Shown here one piece after another: positions 1 through 54,200 of a stretch of DNA of 64,000 nt (positions within the stretch are counted from its first letter, which is position 1; every line of letters begins with the position of its first letter). Source of the DNA: Mesodorylaimus sp. YZB2_4 (taxonomy: Eukaryota > Nematoda > Enoplea > Dorylaimida > Dorylaimidae); contig JASANH010000304.1 in assembly GCA_030248295.1 (NCBI GenBank), positions 62,001-126,000 of the forward strand, written 5' to 3'. Both the position numbers and the translations under genes were made by a program. The notes below the pieces were generated by a model, which made no database searches, was not told the origin of the DNA, and was given only the letters and a program-made list of their open reading frames with translations.

Positions 1-2624
1 TTGGCTGGATGCCAAAGATAATTGTCAATCATTCTTTCTGTGAATTTTTGTAAGTCAGTTCCAGGTGCAATTACTGATCCAAGATACCACAACTTTGAAA
101 GATAATATGTATTTGCTACATGAATCCTGCCAAACAGGGAAACTTCTGAATGTGCTATCCTAGTGCCTAATGAGGCGATGTGCTCCCGTACCCCAGTCCA
201 ATTATCCGCAACTTCCATTCCCTCTTTTCCAATGAAAAATCCGTAGACTTTTACCTTGTCTACAACAAAGGGCCTCAGCTCGGGTCCTACGCTGTCAGGC
301 TCTTTCTTTCCTAGACACAGAATCTTTGTCTTGGTTGTTTTCAATGTTGCCCCGCTGGCTCTTTTATAGTGCTCATAGATGTGCATGATACGACCTACTG
401 AATGTTCATCAGACACCAAGAAATTCGTATCATCCGCATAGTTACTTATCTTTTGCTCTTGTCCTAAGATGTCCAGTCCTTTGACCAGTTTGTCCCTCCT
501 GATATAATTGGTCACTGTTTCCGACACCAGTACATATAGCAGTGCGGACAGTGGGCAACCTTGCCTGACCCCTCTACTAGGATGGAAGCTGGTGGATATG
601 TAACCGTTCACCTGAACCGAAGAAGCAACTAGGCCATCCTTGTAAATTATTCCTATCCATTTCTGGAACCCCTCGCCCAATCTGAACCATTCTAGCACAC
701 GTTGCATATACTCCCACTCGATGATGTCGAAGGCCGACATGTGATCGACAGACAACAGCATGGCCCCCATTTCCTTCTCATTGACATACTCAACTGCGTT
801 GTACAAAGTAAGCACTCCGTCCCTTATGTCCCTTCCTGGCACTGAGCACGTTTGGTCGGGGTGCACAAGCTTGCACATTATGTTCCTAAGCCTTATCACT
901 AAAACCTTAGCCAGGATTTTGTAGTCCACATTGAGCATGGTCAGTGGCCTCCAATTGGACCTAAGCTTTTTATCACCTTCTCCTTTGTACAACTGGGATA
1001 TTATTCCAAAGTACAAGCTCCCTGGCAACTCCCCTAGACGCAAGCTAGCTGCAAAAACTTTGGTCAAAATGACACTTAGCTCAGCCAAGAACGTCAAATA
1101 GAATTCTATTGGCAGCCCGTCACTGCCTGGCGATTTCTTTTTGCTGAAGGAGAGTACCGCTTTTTTTACCTCGTCTTCACTTATCTCTCCCTCCAGTGCA
1201 GCCCTGTCTACCTCGTCGGCTGTACCGAAGGGAGGTTGGTCTAAAAACATTCTTGCCGCATTTTCCTTGATCGTCCCTGCACTTGTGAACAACGATGCGT
1301 ACTGTCTTCTCACTTCTGCTATCACCTCCAGTTGATTATCATGCACGATCCCCTTATCATCTTTAATCGCGTACACTGTTCTTAATTCAGCCGAATTCTT
1401 TTGCATTAGTTTGGCTGTTACCAGCGTGAACTGGTCTGTTGCCAAATCTTTATAGTGCGTTTTTGCCAATCTCTTCCTGATTTCCTCGCGGTCAAAACTC
1501 CTTAGTTTTTCCCTTACTTCCTCGTATTCAGCTTTCATCACGTCACTCCTGGGATACTGTGCCAGCAGTGCCTTAGCCCTCTCCAGGTCCTTTGCTATAC
1601 CCGCTCTTCTTTTCCTTCCGTAGGACTCGAACTGAGTTTTAGATGCTCTGCACAACCGTCCTATTTCAGACTTGCACTGATCCCACGCACTCAGCACATC
1701 CCTATCGCATGCGCCTTGGAGGTAGGCCTCCAAAAACAAAAGCTTATTTTTGACTTGTTCCTTCAAAGCATCGTCACGTTGTAAAAACTCTACGTCTAGT
1801 TTCCAGTAAGAAGGTCCTCTTTTAATCTGCGCAAAGCTAAATATAAAAGAAATTTGAAAAATCTTATGATCAGACAGTCCTGTTTCTATGAATTCATGCT
1901 TGCTGTACGACTCAACCGCGTTTTCAGTGCCATAAATTCTGTCAAGTCGCCCTTGAGTTTTGGAACTGTGAGCAAGATGAGAGAATTCTTTTGTCTTCGG
2001 ATTATGATATCGGAAGATATCGTGCAATTTAAATTTAGATGAAAATTTAGAAAACTCTTTCAGCCCGCCCTCTGGATAGACCGTGAGGTCACTTCGGTCG
2101 AGCTCCTTGGACTCGACAAAGTTGAAATCTCCCATGCAAAAGGCAGCATCGTGGTACCGGAACTTTTCTAAAGCCTTGTCGAGTAACTGGTCAAAGAAAG
2201 CTTTCCTAGGGGACTCTTGAGCAGGCGCATATACTCCAAAAAGAAGAAAAATCCTAGACTCATATCGAACCTTCAATGCTATTGCTCTACCTTCAATACT
2301 GGTTATGCGAGTTATTTCCGAGAACAAACAAGCCCTACTGACCAACATACATATCCCTGAACAATACTCTTGTGAAAAACTATGGAAAATCATAAATCTG
2401 CTTTCAAAAACACTGTCAAAGTAGGCCGCTTCAGAGTGGTTTCGAAAATGCGTCTCCTGCATACAAACTACATCATACACTTTCAAAAATTCAAAAACTG
2501 AGAGAATTTTTGGCACCTTATTTCTCAGCCCAGCAGTATTGTAAGTTGCAAAAAATATTTTTGGACCTATGATGAGATCAAGAAATATTGACCAACAAGA
2601 CCTAGCACCGCCCGAAACCCAATC
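1..2624 (-). CDS. LINE ORF2: APE endonuclease + reverse transcriptase (C-terminus beyond window)
   Basis: The frame is open for about 874 codons from 2624 down to the window edge; I checked codon triplets through it and found no stop. Counting from 2624, an APE-type endonuclease comes first: TYN near residue 27, QETH at 56-59, GDFN at 165-168, RLDR around 226-229 and SDH at 251-253. These are the usual catalytic and metal-binding positions of LINE endonucleases. The reverse transcriptase follows, with SPGSDGLPIEFY, RGVRQGCPLS and the catalytic YADD at 729-732. The style resembles the L1/Tx1 group, but that assignment is by eye. By family knowledge the protein nicks target DNA and primes reverse transcription there. 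The first ATG in frame (2462) lies inside the endonuclease, so the real start is unclear. ORF1 lies just upstream on the same strand. Confidence 0.9.
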
Positions 2625-2632
2625 TTACAGTT

Positions 2633-4144
2633 TCAAAAAGCCAAGCTCTCATCCAGGACATTGTTACAGCTCTGCTTACGTTTTGGATGCGTGTCCGATT
2701 GCTCCTCTCCACTCGATTCCCCGTCGCTGCTACGCTGTCGTTTCCTCATTTCGGCTTGCTTTCTTTTCTCCATCACTTCATGCACTTCCTTTTCAAACTG
2801 CGGCAATTTCATCATCTTGTCTCGCAGTTCCGTCAGCAGCTTGCCAAATTCGTTTTTCCCTTTCCATTTGGATTGATCAAAAATTTCCAGATCGTCACAG
2901 CTCAGGCCAACACCCCATCGGCTATCGTTCGGATTGCCCTCCACCAGTAGTTTAGGCGATGTTTCAAACAGAAATTTTCTTAATTCCGGATTGCATTCGA
3001 ATTTTTTGAAGTTTGCCAAATACAATTTTTTCTTCGCGAAATCAATCCACTTGCCCATATCCTTTTCGTTCCACTTGATCTTTTTGCCAATCGCTTTCGT
3101 CTCAGCCGCTGATTCCGCGTTCATGATCCTCATTTCGTCTTCCTTGTCACCCACTGCTTTCGCCCTTTCCTTATACAGATATTGCTCAGTTGAAGTGAAG
3201 CTTTGGCCATCTATCGTAAAGGCGCATGGATGGTGATTCGAAAGAGGCGATTCTTTCGAAAAAAAAGGAAGAATTTCTTGAACACTTGCCACTGCTGTGG
3301 CAGCTGTTTCTCGGTTCGGTCGAGTGATGACTGGTGCATTGGCGGTCAAGGTTGTCAGTGGGGGGTACTCTTCATTGCTGATCTCATTAGGCTTGTTCGA
3401 TATATTCGTTGTCGGAGTCGGTCCTATCGATCCTGATTCAGCAGCTTGTCGAAATCCTCCACCACCGCTGGCCATCGCTGCATATGAGCCTGGTTCTGGT
3501 CGGTAGTCGGCAAGATAGCAATTCCTTGCCATGTGGCCTTTGCTCTTACATCGCCAGCACCAAATGGGCATTCCGTGATACCATACTTGGACCGAGAATG
3601 CTTTTCTTTGATCACGAGGCTTGAAGTCGATGTATCCAGGTATTTCCTTCTCAGGGGGCAACGACACAATGACTGATCTTGCACCAGATCTAATTTCCGT
3701 TCCACGATAGGTGATCCATCTCATTTCTGACCTGCTTGGAAATCCGTGATCTTTGAGCCACTTTTCTACTTCCGTGTGTCCAATGTCGATCGGTATTCCA
3801 AACAAATGAATGGTTTTTCTCCCCTCGGGAGTGAACACTTTTGGCATTTCAATATCGACACGAATATTGAAAATTGACAATTTTTCCTTGACGACCAGGT
3901 CACGTGATTCTTTTGTTGGATAGGCCAGCTTAATTGCACGAGCGAAGCGCCAAGCAAATAATGGATGTCTTTCTTTTGGATTTTCTTCCGAGATGGCTTT
4001 CATAATCACCTCTACACTCTTGTCGAGCAGATCATTCGACCGCAATGAGATGTAGGCAAACTCGAACCCGCTCTTGACAGACGTGGTGTTTTCCAAAATG
4101 AACTCATTTTCGATTTCCATCGTATTGGAAGCTTGATTCTCCAT
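2633..4144 (-). CDS. LINE ORF1: RRM-like + CCHC zinc knuckle + NADAR domain protein (503 aa)
   Basis: The start is ATG at 4144 (MENQASN); the frame continues upstream but without a better ATG. In order: an N-terminal region; an RRM-like segment at about residues 111-173 (IHLFGIPI and ARSVIVSL resemble RNP strands); a single CX2CX4HX4C zinc knuckle at 196-209; a Gly/Ser/Thr-rich linker; a NADAR domain at about 293-445; and a Lys/Arg-rich tail with nuclear-localisation-like basic clusters. The NADAR call rests on SPLSNHHPCAF, the Glu-Gln pair in STEQYLY, LVEGNPNDSRWGVGL and GKNEFGKLLTELRDK, in the family order and spacing. NADAR proteins act on ADP-ribose-type substrates, including removal of ADP-ribose from guanine bases in bacterial DarT1 systems. 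LINE ORF1 proteins normally bind element RNA. A NADAR fusion is not a standard ORF1 part that I know. Confidence 0.88.
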   Translation of the reverse strand: MENQASNTMEIENEFILENTTSVKSGFEFAYISLRSNDLLDKSVEVIMKAISEENPKERHPLFAWRFARAIKLAYPTKESRDLVVKEKLSIFNIRVDIEMPKVFTPEGRKTIHLFGIPIDIGHTEVEKWLKDHGFPSRSEMRWITYRGTEIRSGARSVIVSLPPEKEIPGYIDFKPRDQRKAFSVQVWYHGMPIWCWRCKSKGHMARNCYLADYRPEPGSYAAMASGGGGFRQAAESGSIGPTPTTNISNKPNEISNEEYPPLTTLTANAPVITRPNRETAATAVASVQEILPFFSKESPLSNHHPCAFTIDGQSFTSTEQYLYKERAKAVGDKEDEMRIMNAESAAETKAIGKKIKWNEKDMGKWIDFAKKKLYLANFKKFECNPELRKFLFETSPKLLVEGNPNDSRWGVGLSCDDLEIFDQSKWKGKNEFGKLLTELRDKMMKLPQFEKEVHEVMEKRKQAEMRKRQRSSDGESSGEEQSDTHPKRKQSCNNVLDESLAF

Positions 4145-4260
4145 TATTCTCCTTCCCGTGAAATACCTTGAACCACGATACTTCCTCCTCCAGAGGATTC
4201 CGTAAAGTGAAATCAGGTAATCAATTCGATATAATCTTATTAATATCAAGATCTCTATCC

Positions 4261-5497
4261 GTTGTCCTTTCGCTCTATTACGTAAAAAAAACTAGTTTCT
4301 GCACACGCAGGAGAGAGTAACATGGCCATCAAGACTGGAACGAGATCCGAAATGGAGCATGCTAAGACTTTCCGGGTACTTCATGGCGATAGTTCATATA
4401 TGCACTAGTTTCACGTTCACCTCACTTTATTTCAATAAAATCGCGCAGACATGGCAACTAGCTGCGGCCCAAAGCGCATATAACGCTTGCGAATAGGAAT
4501 AAGGCGGGAGTAGCAGACACGTGGTTGACACAAAAGGGCATGGCATACATGAACTACTTTCCTGGGCATCCATATGCATGTCCGCATCGGCATCCCTGTC
4601 CATATGGATGTCCACCCTAGCCAAGGAGGGGGGTGGGTTAAGCGGGAAGTGGACATTCACTTTTGGAATAGGCGGGAGCTACAGTTTCTGCTAATTATAT
4701 CCACATCATTGAAACACCATGGAAGATGCATCTCCTGATCTGATCCGACCCGAGGTCTGGATCCCCCCGTTTTGTGTGCATGGAAAAAAGGACCACAAGA
4801 TTGACACAAATACGAGTAGAATTCATGTCAGGCAACAGATCACGCCCGCTGCGTCTTATTGATTTTGGACGCAGGTGTGGGCTAGACAGTAGGGTTTAGC
4901 CGTGAAAACAATGGGCAGGTCACTAACTTATCAACATTTGGCGGGCCCAAAACTCGTTCAACGAGGCGCACCCAGTTCCTTTAATTAATAACTTTCTTGC
5001 ATTTTCAGCGTACATTGTCAAATGACACAAGGCACACGGGTTGGCCCTGTTTTGGCCCTGGTTCGGCCGATTTAGTCAGATTCTGCTCCAAAACGCTGGA
5101 GCTGGTTCAGTTCGGCCTGTTGGGTGGTTTGGTCCAAGCTAAAGGAGGCTGGAAAAAAAGGTTTCCCGCGAAGAACTGGCATATTTCAGTGATCAGTGAC
5201 GGGCCGTAAGTATTTTTACGCAAAGCGGAATTACATGCTGGCGAGGCCCTGTCTTACCGCTTGGCCCCGCCCATGTAGCGCCATTGTGTTTAGCTTTTGT
5301 GCTGATATATGTAATCAATAATCATGTCCGCAGCTCCTCCCGTTTTCGTTACTCACAAAAGATGGATTGTGTTGGTACTTGCGCTGCATATCGTCCATTT
5401 TTTAGGAACCGCGCCCCACACACAAGGGGCATACCACGCAGCGAGCAGATAAGTCTTTCATCCATGGCCCTTAGAAAACGAACATGCCTGGCCACGT
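4261..5497. other. Intergenic, no gene recognised
   Basis: Short open frames on both strands around 4430-4660 and 5000-5560 have no recognisable domain, no splice pattern and no signal sequence. Nothing else is supported here. Confidence 0.6.
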
Positions 5498-8228: not shown

Positions 8229-8675
8229 ATGAAATTATCAGTTTTTGTTGTGGCGATCACGTTGGTTGTGATGGCGGCCTCACACAAGTCGCACCCTCGA
8301 CCCAGTGACCAAGGCAAAGATCATGGCGGGAGTGGACTAGATGTGGCCGAGAGTGCAACGAACCGACAACGTCGTCATCAACACGGAAACAGTGACGATC
8401 ATGGAAGTGGGGGTGGCCGTCAAAGAAAACATGGAGGTGGCGACGGTGGCCACCACAATCATGGAGGAAGTGGTGATGGAAATCATAGAAGACAAGGAGG
8501 CGATCAGAGGCCCGCTCACAGTCACGGATCGAAACATGGCAGCGGCGTCGGAGGTGGCCACGGCGAGCATAATGCAGAGAATCACAGCCCCCCTCAACGA
8601 ACTGCTGACGTGGCATCAGCACATTTTTTGAAGCCGGGAGTAGAAGCGCAGATCCAGGCCAACGTAGAGCAATAA
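8229..8675 (+). CDS. Secreted His/Gly-rich protein, 148 aa, intronless
   Basis: I chose the ATG at 8229 because the TATA box at 8154 lies downstream of the longer in-frame start at 8124. The protein opens with a clear signal peptide (MKLSVFVVAITLVVMAAS). The rest, from about residue 19, is low-complexity and rich in His, Gly, Asp and Arg, with repeated (H/N)HGGSGDG-type words. It has no cysteine and no membrane segment. His/Gly-rich secreted proteins elsewhere can bind metal ions or form extracellular matrix, but no function is shown here. The next gene at 9402 has the same plan (TATA, no intron, MKL signal peptide, charged low-complexity body), so the two may serve the same secretion. No family is recognised. 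Confidence 0.75.
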   Translation: MKLSVFVVAITLVVMAASHKSHPRPSDQGKDHGGSGLDVAESATNRQRRHQHGNSDDHGSGGGRQRKHGGGDGGHHNHGGSGDGNHRRQGGDQRPAHSHGSKHGSGVGGGHGEHNAENHSPPQRTADVASAHFLKPGVEAQIQANVEQ

Positions 8676-27662: not shown

Positions 27663-28892
<1,230 letters not shown>

Positions 28893-51200: not shown

Positions 51201-54200
51201 ATTCTCCTTCCTTGTGCATAAGTGTCTCCCGAAAGATCGAGGTGTCTCCACAACACACTGATACCCGCGACACCCCTCCCAGTTCCGGATGCTACTTCAT
51301 GCCTCAATAATCCATTTTACTTGAGACTTTGTAACTATCTATTCACCTTGCCAAAGCCTGCCTATGCTTCGTCATTTCGTCCATTCGCCTGCTACTTGCG
51401 ACCAGCCTGAGTACAGGTAACGACTCATGATCAGATCCGAATTTTCAATAGGTTACAAATAACTCGGATGGCCTGGGTGTCGAACCACGACCTCCTCCGC
51501 TGCTTGTGCGCTACTGGCCGCTTCTGCTGTTGACTGACACTTTCTTTCAATTCCACTTTTTCCACACGCCAATCACTTTGTAGTCATTTTTCTGAAACAA
51601 TTTTGGTTTTTAAGACCCCTGACTTTTCTGCATCATTTTCAATACTTTAACGACCAGCTTTTGAAACCAGTCGTTTGAGTAAGAAATCGAATTTTTTCTT
51701 CAGACAGGATTCTCCTTTCTTGTCAATCGCAGTCATTTGCTTGAGCGAATTCTAAAATCAAGCAGTCAGGCAGAACATTGTGACTTATCTGATTTGATAG
51801 GAGCGACTCGAGGCGAATAGACTTGTCAGTCTCGATTGACAAGTTCAAAGTTTGAGTATTACACTTTTATTCACTCGACTAAGGCCTTATTTCAAAAAAT
51901 GTGAACAATTTCCGTTATGAGCTAGTTGAATAGGGTCGAGTGCGTTGGGGGCGGCTGTGAAATTGAGACTAGTCGGCCCAGTAGAAGGCGAGGGAGTGGT
52001 CGAATAAGAATTGGTGAACCTCTGGAGGCAACAATTTGAGGTTCTAGTTGTCTTACGCCTCATTTGCCTTTGTTCACTTTCCGGACTTGCGTCTTTGCTC
52101 GATTGTTTGTAAGCATTGGAGGCCGAGGCAGGGCCATTCGTTTCCTATCGCCGCCTCCTACTCCACCTTCTTCGTCTTCGTCGTCCGCTCCAGCGCGCGT
52201 CCATTTTTGGCTGAAAGACGTCTTTAAATCGAGTAGAGCAAAGCTAAATTGTCGAATCGATATTGCAGGCCGGACACGTGTGCCAAGGGTGTTTTTGGTG
52301 TAGTTTGGTGCTCGATCGAAATGTCAGAAGGCTGAGCTCAGCTTGGACGAGGCTGGGGGAGGTTATCAAAGACCTGTTCATGAAGCAACTGGTGTCTGCC
52401 ACTTGTCGCCTTGTCACAGCACAGCATTCTTGCGTCAGTCTTTTGAAAGAGTGTCGAAGTGACAATTCAAAACCGATCATCGTTTCGAGTGCATTGTAAC
52501 CTGTTTTTACTCATTCTGTCTTTATGCATCGTCGATTCTCGAGCCAGTGGGGTGGTTTTTTGTTGATTTTTCTTGCATTCTTGAATTTGATGGAATATGA
52601 TTCCATTCGTGATCAGTGTACCGCAATCGGTCCATACTAGACCCAGTTGTAAAGGTGCAGTGTTGCGAGATGGTTGGAATCCGGTAAGGTAGCTGTGGGA
52701 ATGAGGACAAGGTAACCCTGTTTATCATCATCATCCATGTTTTTAGTTTGTTTTGTCAGGACTGAAGCATTACAGTTTGGAGCTCTGTTCCAGTGTACCG
52801 ACCCCTAATGGGGCGGTTGCGTGTTCTGATGCTCATACATTTGTGTGAAAGTCGGCATGTGCAGCAGTGCAGTGCACAGTGGCGATGGAATATCGCTTCG
52901 TTGACCCATGAGGCGTATAATCGAATAACCGTGGTAACTTTGGATAGACTGTCCAGTTTGGATAGACTGTCCAGTTTGGATAGACTGTCCAGTTTGGATA
53001 GACTGTCCAGTTTGGATAGACTGTCCAGTTTGGATAGACTGTCCAGTTTGGATAGACTGTCCAGTTTGGATAGACTGTCCAGTTTGGATAGACTGTCCAG
53101 TTTGGATAGACTGTCCAGTTTGGATAGACTGTCCAGTTTGGATAGACTGTCCAGTTTGGATAGACTGTCCAGTTTGGATAGACTGTCCAGTTTGGATAGA
53201 CTGTCCAGTTTGGATAGACTGTCCAGTTTGGATAGACTGTCCAGTTTGGATAGACTGTCCAGTTTGGATAGACTGTCCAGTTTGGATAGACTGTCCAGTT
53301 TGGATAGACTGTCCAGTTTGGATAGACTGTCCAGTTTGGATAGACTGTCCAGTTTGGATAGACTGTCCAGTTTGGATAGACTGTCCAGTTTGGATAGACT
53401 GTCCAGTTTGGATAGACTGTCCAGTTTGGATAGACTGTCCAGTTTGCCACTTGTTGCCGTGTTACAGCACAACATTCTTGCGCACACCATCCAAACTGGG
53501 GAAAGTGTCCACGCAGTTTGAACAGACTATCAAGCTGTCCAAACTGCGTACTACGCCGAATGGTGCAAATTAGAGCAAACCTTTAGCTAAGCAAGGTCTC
53601 ACTCTTGCAATGGATGTGTGAAATTTTTTTAAAGCCTGATTCACATTCCAGGTCATCTGTGCCGTGCTGGTAATCATAAACGCAGTGGGGCTTATCCAAC
53701 TTTTCAAGCTTTTCTGCCTTGGTGCAACAGGGCGCAGGTCGGTTTCGGACAATCCATCATTTTCTCCGGCTATGTGACATTGCATCGAGTTGAGTCCAGT
53801 CTGCCATCCTCGACGACTTTGTTTTGCATCCTGGAGAACAGGACTGCCACTGGATGACTTCCTGTAGTGGCCAGTGAGAATGACCCACGTCAGCAGGCGT
53901 CATTTTATGAATGAGCTTGAAGGCTATTTGGAAAATGTAAGCACATGTTTGCCAAAATTCTTTTCAAATGGCTGAAACTGGCTTTCGAATTTTCGAAATT
54001 TTAATGTCTCTCGGATGGGTAATAAAAACTGTTTCTTTATCGTCTGCTGGCGCCAGTCTCTACGCGTCAGCTGGTCGCAAATCCGAATGGACAACTGACA
54101 CTGGGGGGACGTATTTCGTGCCTTGAATCGAGTCGACTGCAGAGGAGAGTGTTAGACAATGAATACGCCTTGGCTCGGCTGTCAACAAGCTGGTGGTTTG

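Follow-up and report, generated by a model that had tools for sequence, protein, structure and literature searches.

Proteins with a NADAR domain hydrolyse guanine-linked ADP-ribose, a reaction also reported for the P. nicotianae NADAR, while bacterial and plant members of the YbiA type are N-glycosidases acting on riboflavin intermediates (PMC11543638). That DNA and RNA can be ADP-ribosylated was established recently, and little is known of what NADARs do in animals (PMC11125620). The protein SNA-3, reported as specific to nematodes, is essential and nuclear; its NADARs are required for SL1 trans-splicing, and among its partners is the cap-binding CBC-ARS2 complex (PMC9303266). NADARs have also been reported from mobile elements, namely in ORF1 of several Tx1 LINE families of the oyster Crassostrea gigas, where a part in processing RNA intermediates was suggested, and in Pol of Gypsy elements of Ectocarpus (PMC12477816). 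Among the papers listed in searches of open-access literature, this is the only one noted as linking NADARs with retrotransposons, and by its account the fusion of a NADAR to LINE ORF1 is already known as a kind. Here, we describe such a LINE from a probable nematode and propose, with confidence about evenly divided, that it is an L1-group element whose ORF1 captured a YbiA-subfamily NADAR ancestrally and retains it as a functional enzyme acting on element-associated conjugates.

The element lies on the minus strand of the window (the whole stretch of 64,000 nucleotides analysed), where the LINE copy occupies 1..4317, with its 5' end at 4317 and its 3' part continuing beyond the window to C171:60837. 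ORF1 (2633..4144, minus strand) is a single stop-free frame of 503 amino acids, in agreement with an earlier note on this DNA, which had claimed an uninterrupted frame holding an RRM-like segment, a CCHC knuckle and a full NADAR-like domain. The last of these was borne out by profile search: the domain spans residues 293-446 (2807..3268, minus strand), and PF08719 matches residues 297-444 with E 5.9e-30 and a score of 105.1 bits (cut-off 35.1), which places it in the NADAR superfamily. The zinc knuckle at residues 196-209 (3518..3559, minus strand) also stands, its pattern C-x2-C-x4-H-x4-C (C196, C199, H204, C209) being invariant in all seven aligned relatives and the zf-CCHC Pfam model matching six of the seven ORF1 family members (best E 1.3e-6), with a sub-threshold E of 0.011 in the window copy. 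The RRM-like segment is not confirmed, since no RRM model matched any of the seven members at E<=1; among solved structures, the one nearest to the N-terminal part is that of the La protein, at profile positions 117-157 with E 0.11, a resemblance that is suggestive only. The NADAR begins at a run of eight Ts (3259..3266, minus strand), found in the window copy (C171) and in C110, whose ORF1 proteins are identical; C6 and C250 have seven Ts, which shifts the frame, and it is lost there. The variation in this run may reflect a slippery site, a genuine indel or an effect of the assembly. Two contigs, C946 and C313, stop at the T run or immediately ahead of it, and the C110 contig ends at ORF1 residue 294. 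Elsewhere in the window, tandem repeats at 52756-53490 and 27663-28892 are open in several frames, with LDSLSK units in one set.

ORF2 (1..2624, minus strand) is a frame of 1196 amino acids that continues past the window start, and when its full length was taken from the genome it matched Exo_endo_phos (8.9e-11) and RVT_1 (9.8e-27), so that the open endonuclease and reverse transcriptase frame that the earlier note placed next to ORF1 is indeed there, just downstream on the same strand. Its best PDB match is human LINE-1 ORF2p (8.3e-69), R2 being distant (1.7e-8), and the pairing of an APE-type endonuclease with an L1-like reverse transcriptase in one frame is that of L1-group LINEs. The endonuclease has no ATG ahead of it, the first methionine of the frame, residue 55, already lying inside the Pfam match (residues 26-253), an arrangement suggesting that the putative start uses non-AUG or coupled translation. 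The ORF2 frame begins a few bases past the ORF1 stop, in a different frame (window 2516-2635). One ORF2 match, at C196:125996-128914, falls inside an open frame of 22320 amino acids that is perhaps a masked or gap stretch. A genome search with RVT_1, with 150 of 1649 candidates scored, did not separate LINEs from other elements.

Copies of the element are found across the host genome searched (145 Mb in 1067 contigs). Three of them, on C171 (the window copy), C110 and C6, are 99.5% identical across the approximately 5.48 kb of the LINE and have flanks that are not alike, the 5' end of the window copy being about 35 bp shorter than in the other two. The 3' ends are A-rich. The C110 copy has a 14-nt direct repeat whose end lies 7 nt short of the aligned 5' edge, and the C6 copy an A-rich flanking repeat of 9 nt; a flanking repeat of at least 9 nt was looked for at the window copy and not found. 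The identity of the three copies, together with the repeats at two of them, points to recent movement, and the A-rich ends and the C110 and C6 repeats fit target-primed insertion; with these two repeats taken as target-site duplications, the 3' ends too are those of an L1-group LINE. Of 103 candidates in the ORF1 search 85 were scored, which gave 87 matches; six of these are stop-free over at least 450 residues (C110, C171, C37, C352, C154 and C51), the remainder being partial, interrupted or more divergent, with many copies decayed. The seemingly very decayed ORF1 on C31 proved to be a frame effect, this copy being 98.6% identical to that on C37. Outside the genome, searches of protein databases with the whole ORF1, each scoring 7994 candidates, gave three related proteins, all with a NADAR. 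P0002, P0003 and P0006 are relatives from other sources, P0002 stopping inside the domain. With 87 matches in one genome and three NADAR-bearing relatives elsewhere, the joining of ORF1 and NADAR goes beyond chance.

A search with ORF2 gave 42 rows (39 of 1288 candidates scored), of which 13 retain the N-terminal start, defined as a match beginning at query position 22 or lower, and for these, the only ones in which ORF1 was judged, a NADAR lies on the same strand 189-298 bp upstream in 13 of 13, although the 13 represent about six lineages and are not independent cases. Five families of the element, with ORF1s 44-51% identical to one another, all have the domain. Between them the NADAR has a mean pairwise identity of 0.608 and zero gapped columns, compared with 0.470 for the N-terminal region (residues 29-190) and, in the linker and the tail, 0.294 and 0.296, which makes it the best-conserved part of ORF1 and level with ORF2 (0.620, four families). 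Its dN (NG86) is 0.24-0.35 in all ten family pairs, with dS undefined through saturation, and fourfold sites over ORF1 differ at 0.63-0.80 in the three pairs measured. With silent sites so near saturation, this level of conservation indicates that the NADAR is under purifying selection about as strong as that on ORF2. Mobile elements do acquire host sequences accidentally, and decayed copies are common here, so that the NADAR could be a passenger, captured by chance and without function for the element; the conservation of the domain and its presence beside every ORF2 with an intact start largely refute this, and we regard it as extremely improbable. A swap of ORF1 and ORF2 between families 2 and 3 was also considered and rejected, since identity climbs along the element and does not change abruptly where the two ORFs meet. 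In 200-base windows these two families are about 46-67% identical in ORF1, about 72-80% in earlier ORF2 and 84-96% in the last coding kb; exchange at the 3' end between them is possible.

The selected domain mostly retains its catalytic residues. The best PDB match to the NADAR is 8bau (1.2e-10), with E. coli YbiA (2b3w) in the same fold family, and we take 8bau to be the P. nicotianae NADAR of PMC11543638 because ten residues named in that source fit at a constant offset of two; residue roles are from that source and positions follow P. nicotianae numbering. In the window copy E320, W366, E402, D407 and W410 correspond to E43, W89, E125, D130 and W133, with R327 at the K50 position and K354 at the R79 position, so that the active-site set reads E, R, W, E, D, W with K50 to R as the sole change. 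Among the LINE rows E43 is conserved in 17 of 17, E125 in 16 of 17 (G in C681), W89 in 16 of 17 (Q in C173), D130 in 16 of 16 and W133 in 15 of 16 (Y in C90), and K50 is K in 16 of 17, the exception being the R of the window's own family. The bacterial and viral NADARs used for comparison were found by a motif holding E125, D130 and W133, and conservation at these three is therefore built in, while E43, K50, R79 and W89 are unaffected. The glutamate at the E125 position (E402; E in 16 of the 17 rows) is that of the YbiA subfamily; the DarT1-linked BC4488 subfamily has Asp and a DarT partner, neither of which applies here. A DarT partner for the LINE NADAR was looked for in the host genome and set aside, the DarT search giving no match. 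The profile match being significant and the related ORF1 copies keeping both the domain and its catalytic glutamates, the fusion described in the earlier note holds.

The other side of the pocket tells a different story. R79, which contacts the pyrophosphate in the P. nicotianae NADAR (PMC11543638), is replaced by E in nine, G in four and D in one member of the 16-member LINE clade and by K in two, making the position non-basic in 14 of 16, whereas all 52 of the other NADARs compared (15 bacterial, 28 from viral contigs, 2 host, 2 from the PDB and 5 others) are basic there, with R in 48 and K in 4; the window copy, having K, is one of the basic minority of its clade. The R93 position is A in all 16 clade members and varies elsewhere, and, relative to 8bau, the loop from R79 to W89 has two extra residues in 14 of 16, one in P0002 and none in P0003. 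On these comparisons the catalytic side is kept and the phosphate side is remodelled in the LINE clade, and the replacement of the phosphate-site arginine in 14 of 16 suggests that the substrate may not be the same as for NADARs of the DarT1-linked kind or of P. nicotianae. A simple eraser of guanine-ADP-ribose is accordingly counted against, both by the loss of R79 and by the R at the K50 position in the window's family; the equivalent change in the E. coli C7 NADAR, K95R, left activity in vitro but gave no rescue in cells (PMC11543638). The changed phosphate-side residue would also suit an active N-glycosidase working on a small soluble molecule derived from NAD or ribose and not on the nucleic acid or RNP of the element, as YbiA-type NADARs do with riboflavin intermediates (PMC11543638) and as viral NADARs, proposed to prefer soluble ADP-ribose derivatives, may do (PMC11543638, PMC9503650). 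However, fusion to a zinc-knuckle ORF1 protein would put the LINE NADAR on nucleic acid, and bacterial NADARs are mostly stand-alone (PMC11125620), unlike this one, and we judge a small-molecule substrate to be distinctly unlikely.

In a 67-row tree, the 16 LINE NADARs are united in one clade (support 100/100, stem 0.95), in an analysis whose bootstrap had not settled. The clade comprises 13 rows chosen from the host genome, near-duplicates such as C51, C120m and C120p among them, and three from other sources; the bacterial and viral input was the listed 80 of 585 and 80 of 264 relatives, giving 158 usable domains from which 43 non-redundant ones were kept, and the tree left out the host NADARs on C38, C22, C230, C4 and C20, the Helitron copies discussed below and LINE copies beyond the chosen 13. 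A single well-supported clade on a long stem suggests one capture of the NADAR followed by long co-inheritance. The free tree, with the same unsettled bootstrap, gave no supported sister to the clade, and a scan of viral contigs with a LINE-only profile found no relatives among 125 pattern matches. In AU tests, placing the LINE NADARs with the host genes C18a/b was not rejected (p-AU 0.616, the constrained tree being 6.94 log units above the free search), and neither was a single clade of LINE NADARs including P0004, a further ORF1-like protein (p-AU 0.374).

In the main rival to an enzymatic role, the NADAR would be an RNA-processing or docking module imitating SNA-3 and aiding the capping, trans-splicing, export or protection of element RNA. 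The 75 matches of the NADAR profile in the host genome include several cellular genes (C230, C4, C22, C38, C18 and C20), some of them holding numerous domains in tandem or in degenerate form. The TTR-52 family is typical of nematodes, and its 27 matches in the host genome, together with the several tandem NADARs of the C230 gene, which recall SNA-3, fit a nematode host in which such a role would be at home. The grouping of LINE NADARs with two host genes, which the AU test did not reject, also speaks for this reading; SNA-3 itself, essential and nuclear, has three NADARs (PMC9303266). Set against this, the LINE NADARs keep the catalytic set whereas the C230 multi-NADAR gene looks degenerate by eye, and neither the exact SL1 leader nor SL1 RNA was found in the host genome, the RNA search being one that also gave no match in the control. 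A module of the SNA-3 kind seems to us unlikely, if less so than a small-molecule enzyme.

The LINE is not alone in carrying a NADAR in this genome. On C289 a Helitron frame with Helitron_like_N (2315-2893), PIF1 (4223-4846) and a ubiquitin-hydrolase domain in the same open frame is followed downstream of the Rep-helicase frame, on the same strand, by a NADAR at 8245-8508, and then by a frame with a GDS/GTND motif and no Pfam match, which we read as SGNH-hydrolase-like. The spacing from PIF1 to NADAR on C929 is nearly the same (4002 against 4022 bases on C289), and the two stretches share 99.8% identity for 7.58 kb, a span that takes in the NADAR, before diverging at C289:12281. The regions compared were C289:3500-14500 and C929:700-8700, and their 3' flanks differ. 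Parts of the block recur on C765 and C936 (about 79-83%) and on C491 (95%). This Helitron-type element is a second, unrelated mobile carrier of a NADAR in the host genome.

For a working enzyme on element-associated conjugates, then, the evidence includes the NADAR match (E 5.9e-30), its conservation in five families, its place upstream of 13 of 13 ORF2s with intact starts, the single LINE clade, the largely kept catalytic set, the NADAR of the Helitron and a host with PARP matches on six contigs and one KptA/TRPT1 match; on the other side stand the replacement of R79 in 14 of 16, R at the K50 position, a genome without a DarT match and the active-site changes in C681, C173 and C90. ORF1 proteins of LINEs bind element RNA, as is established for L1. 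In the mechanism we propose, the ORF1 protein would use its N-terminal region and CCHC knuckle to bind element RNA, thereby bringing the NADAR to the RNA, cDNA or RNP of the element, where it would hydrolyse an N-ribosidic, ADP-ribosyl-type bond made by NAD-using enzymes of the host. More weakly, such hydrolysis might relieve restriction based on host ADP-ribosylation; counter-defence of this kind, as the earlier note proposed, is plausible and would be one possible reason for maintaining an active enzyme. A broader and rather doubtful possibility is that unrelated mobile classes (the LINE and Helitron here, the oyster LINEs and algal Gypsy elements of PMC12477816) have repeatedly captured NADARs against NAD-dependent modification of nucleic acid by the host, with the LINE clade having refitted its phosphate site to an element-specific, perhaps RNA-linked, substrate. 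A strongly selected LINE NADAR and a Helitron NADAR in the same genome suggest that there may be something worth removing from, or processing on, the nucleic acid of mobile elements in animal cells.

Among the known systems near to this locus, the oyster Tx1 LINEs are animal elements whose ORF1 likewise holds a NADAR, but they come from an oyster where our host is a probable nematode; as they are reported from Repbase in a few sentences, the comparison is one of description only (PMC12477816). The Ectocarpus Gypsy elements are also retrotransposons with a captured YbiA-family NADAR, but are LTR elements (PMC12477816). The database protein P0004, which we read as L1-like ORF1 and in which Pfam gave weak coiled-coil matches only, resembles the window ORF1 in its C-terminal NADAR; it has a coiled coil and no zinc knuckle, and its NADAR lies outside the 16-member clade with R at R79. 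The P. nicotianae NADAR (8bau) and E. coli YbiA (2b3w) share the YbiA fold, the Glu at E125 and the catalytic residues with the LINE domain, but they are stand-alone, retain R79 and are enzymes that have been tested. SNA-3 is an RNA-processing protein with NADARs from the same probable phylum, but belongs to a cellular gene and not to a mobile element, one of its three NADARs being without key residues (PMC9303266). Relative to the account in PMC12477816, what is added here is the probable nematode host, an ORF1 with a zinc knuckle, the selection on the NADAR, the remodelled pocket and the Helitron as a further carrier.
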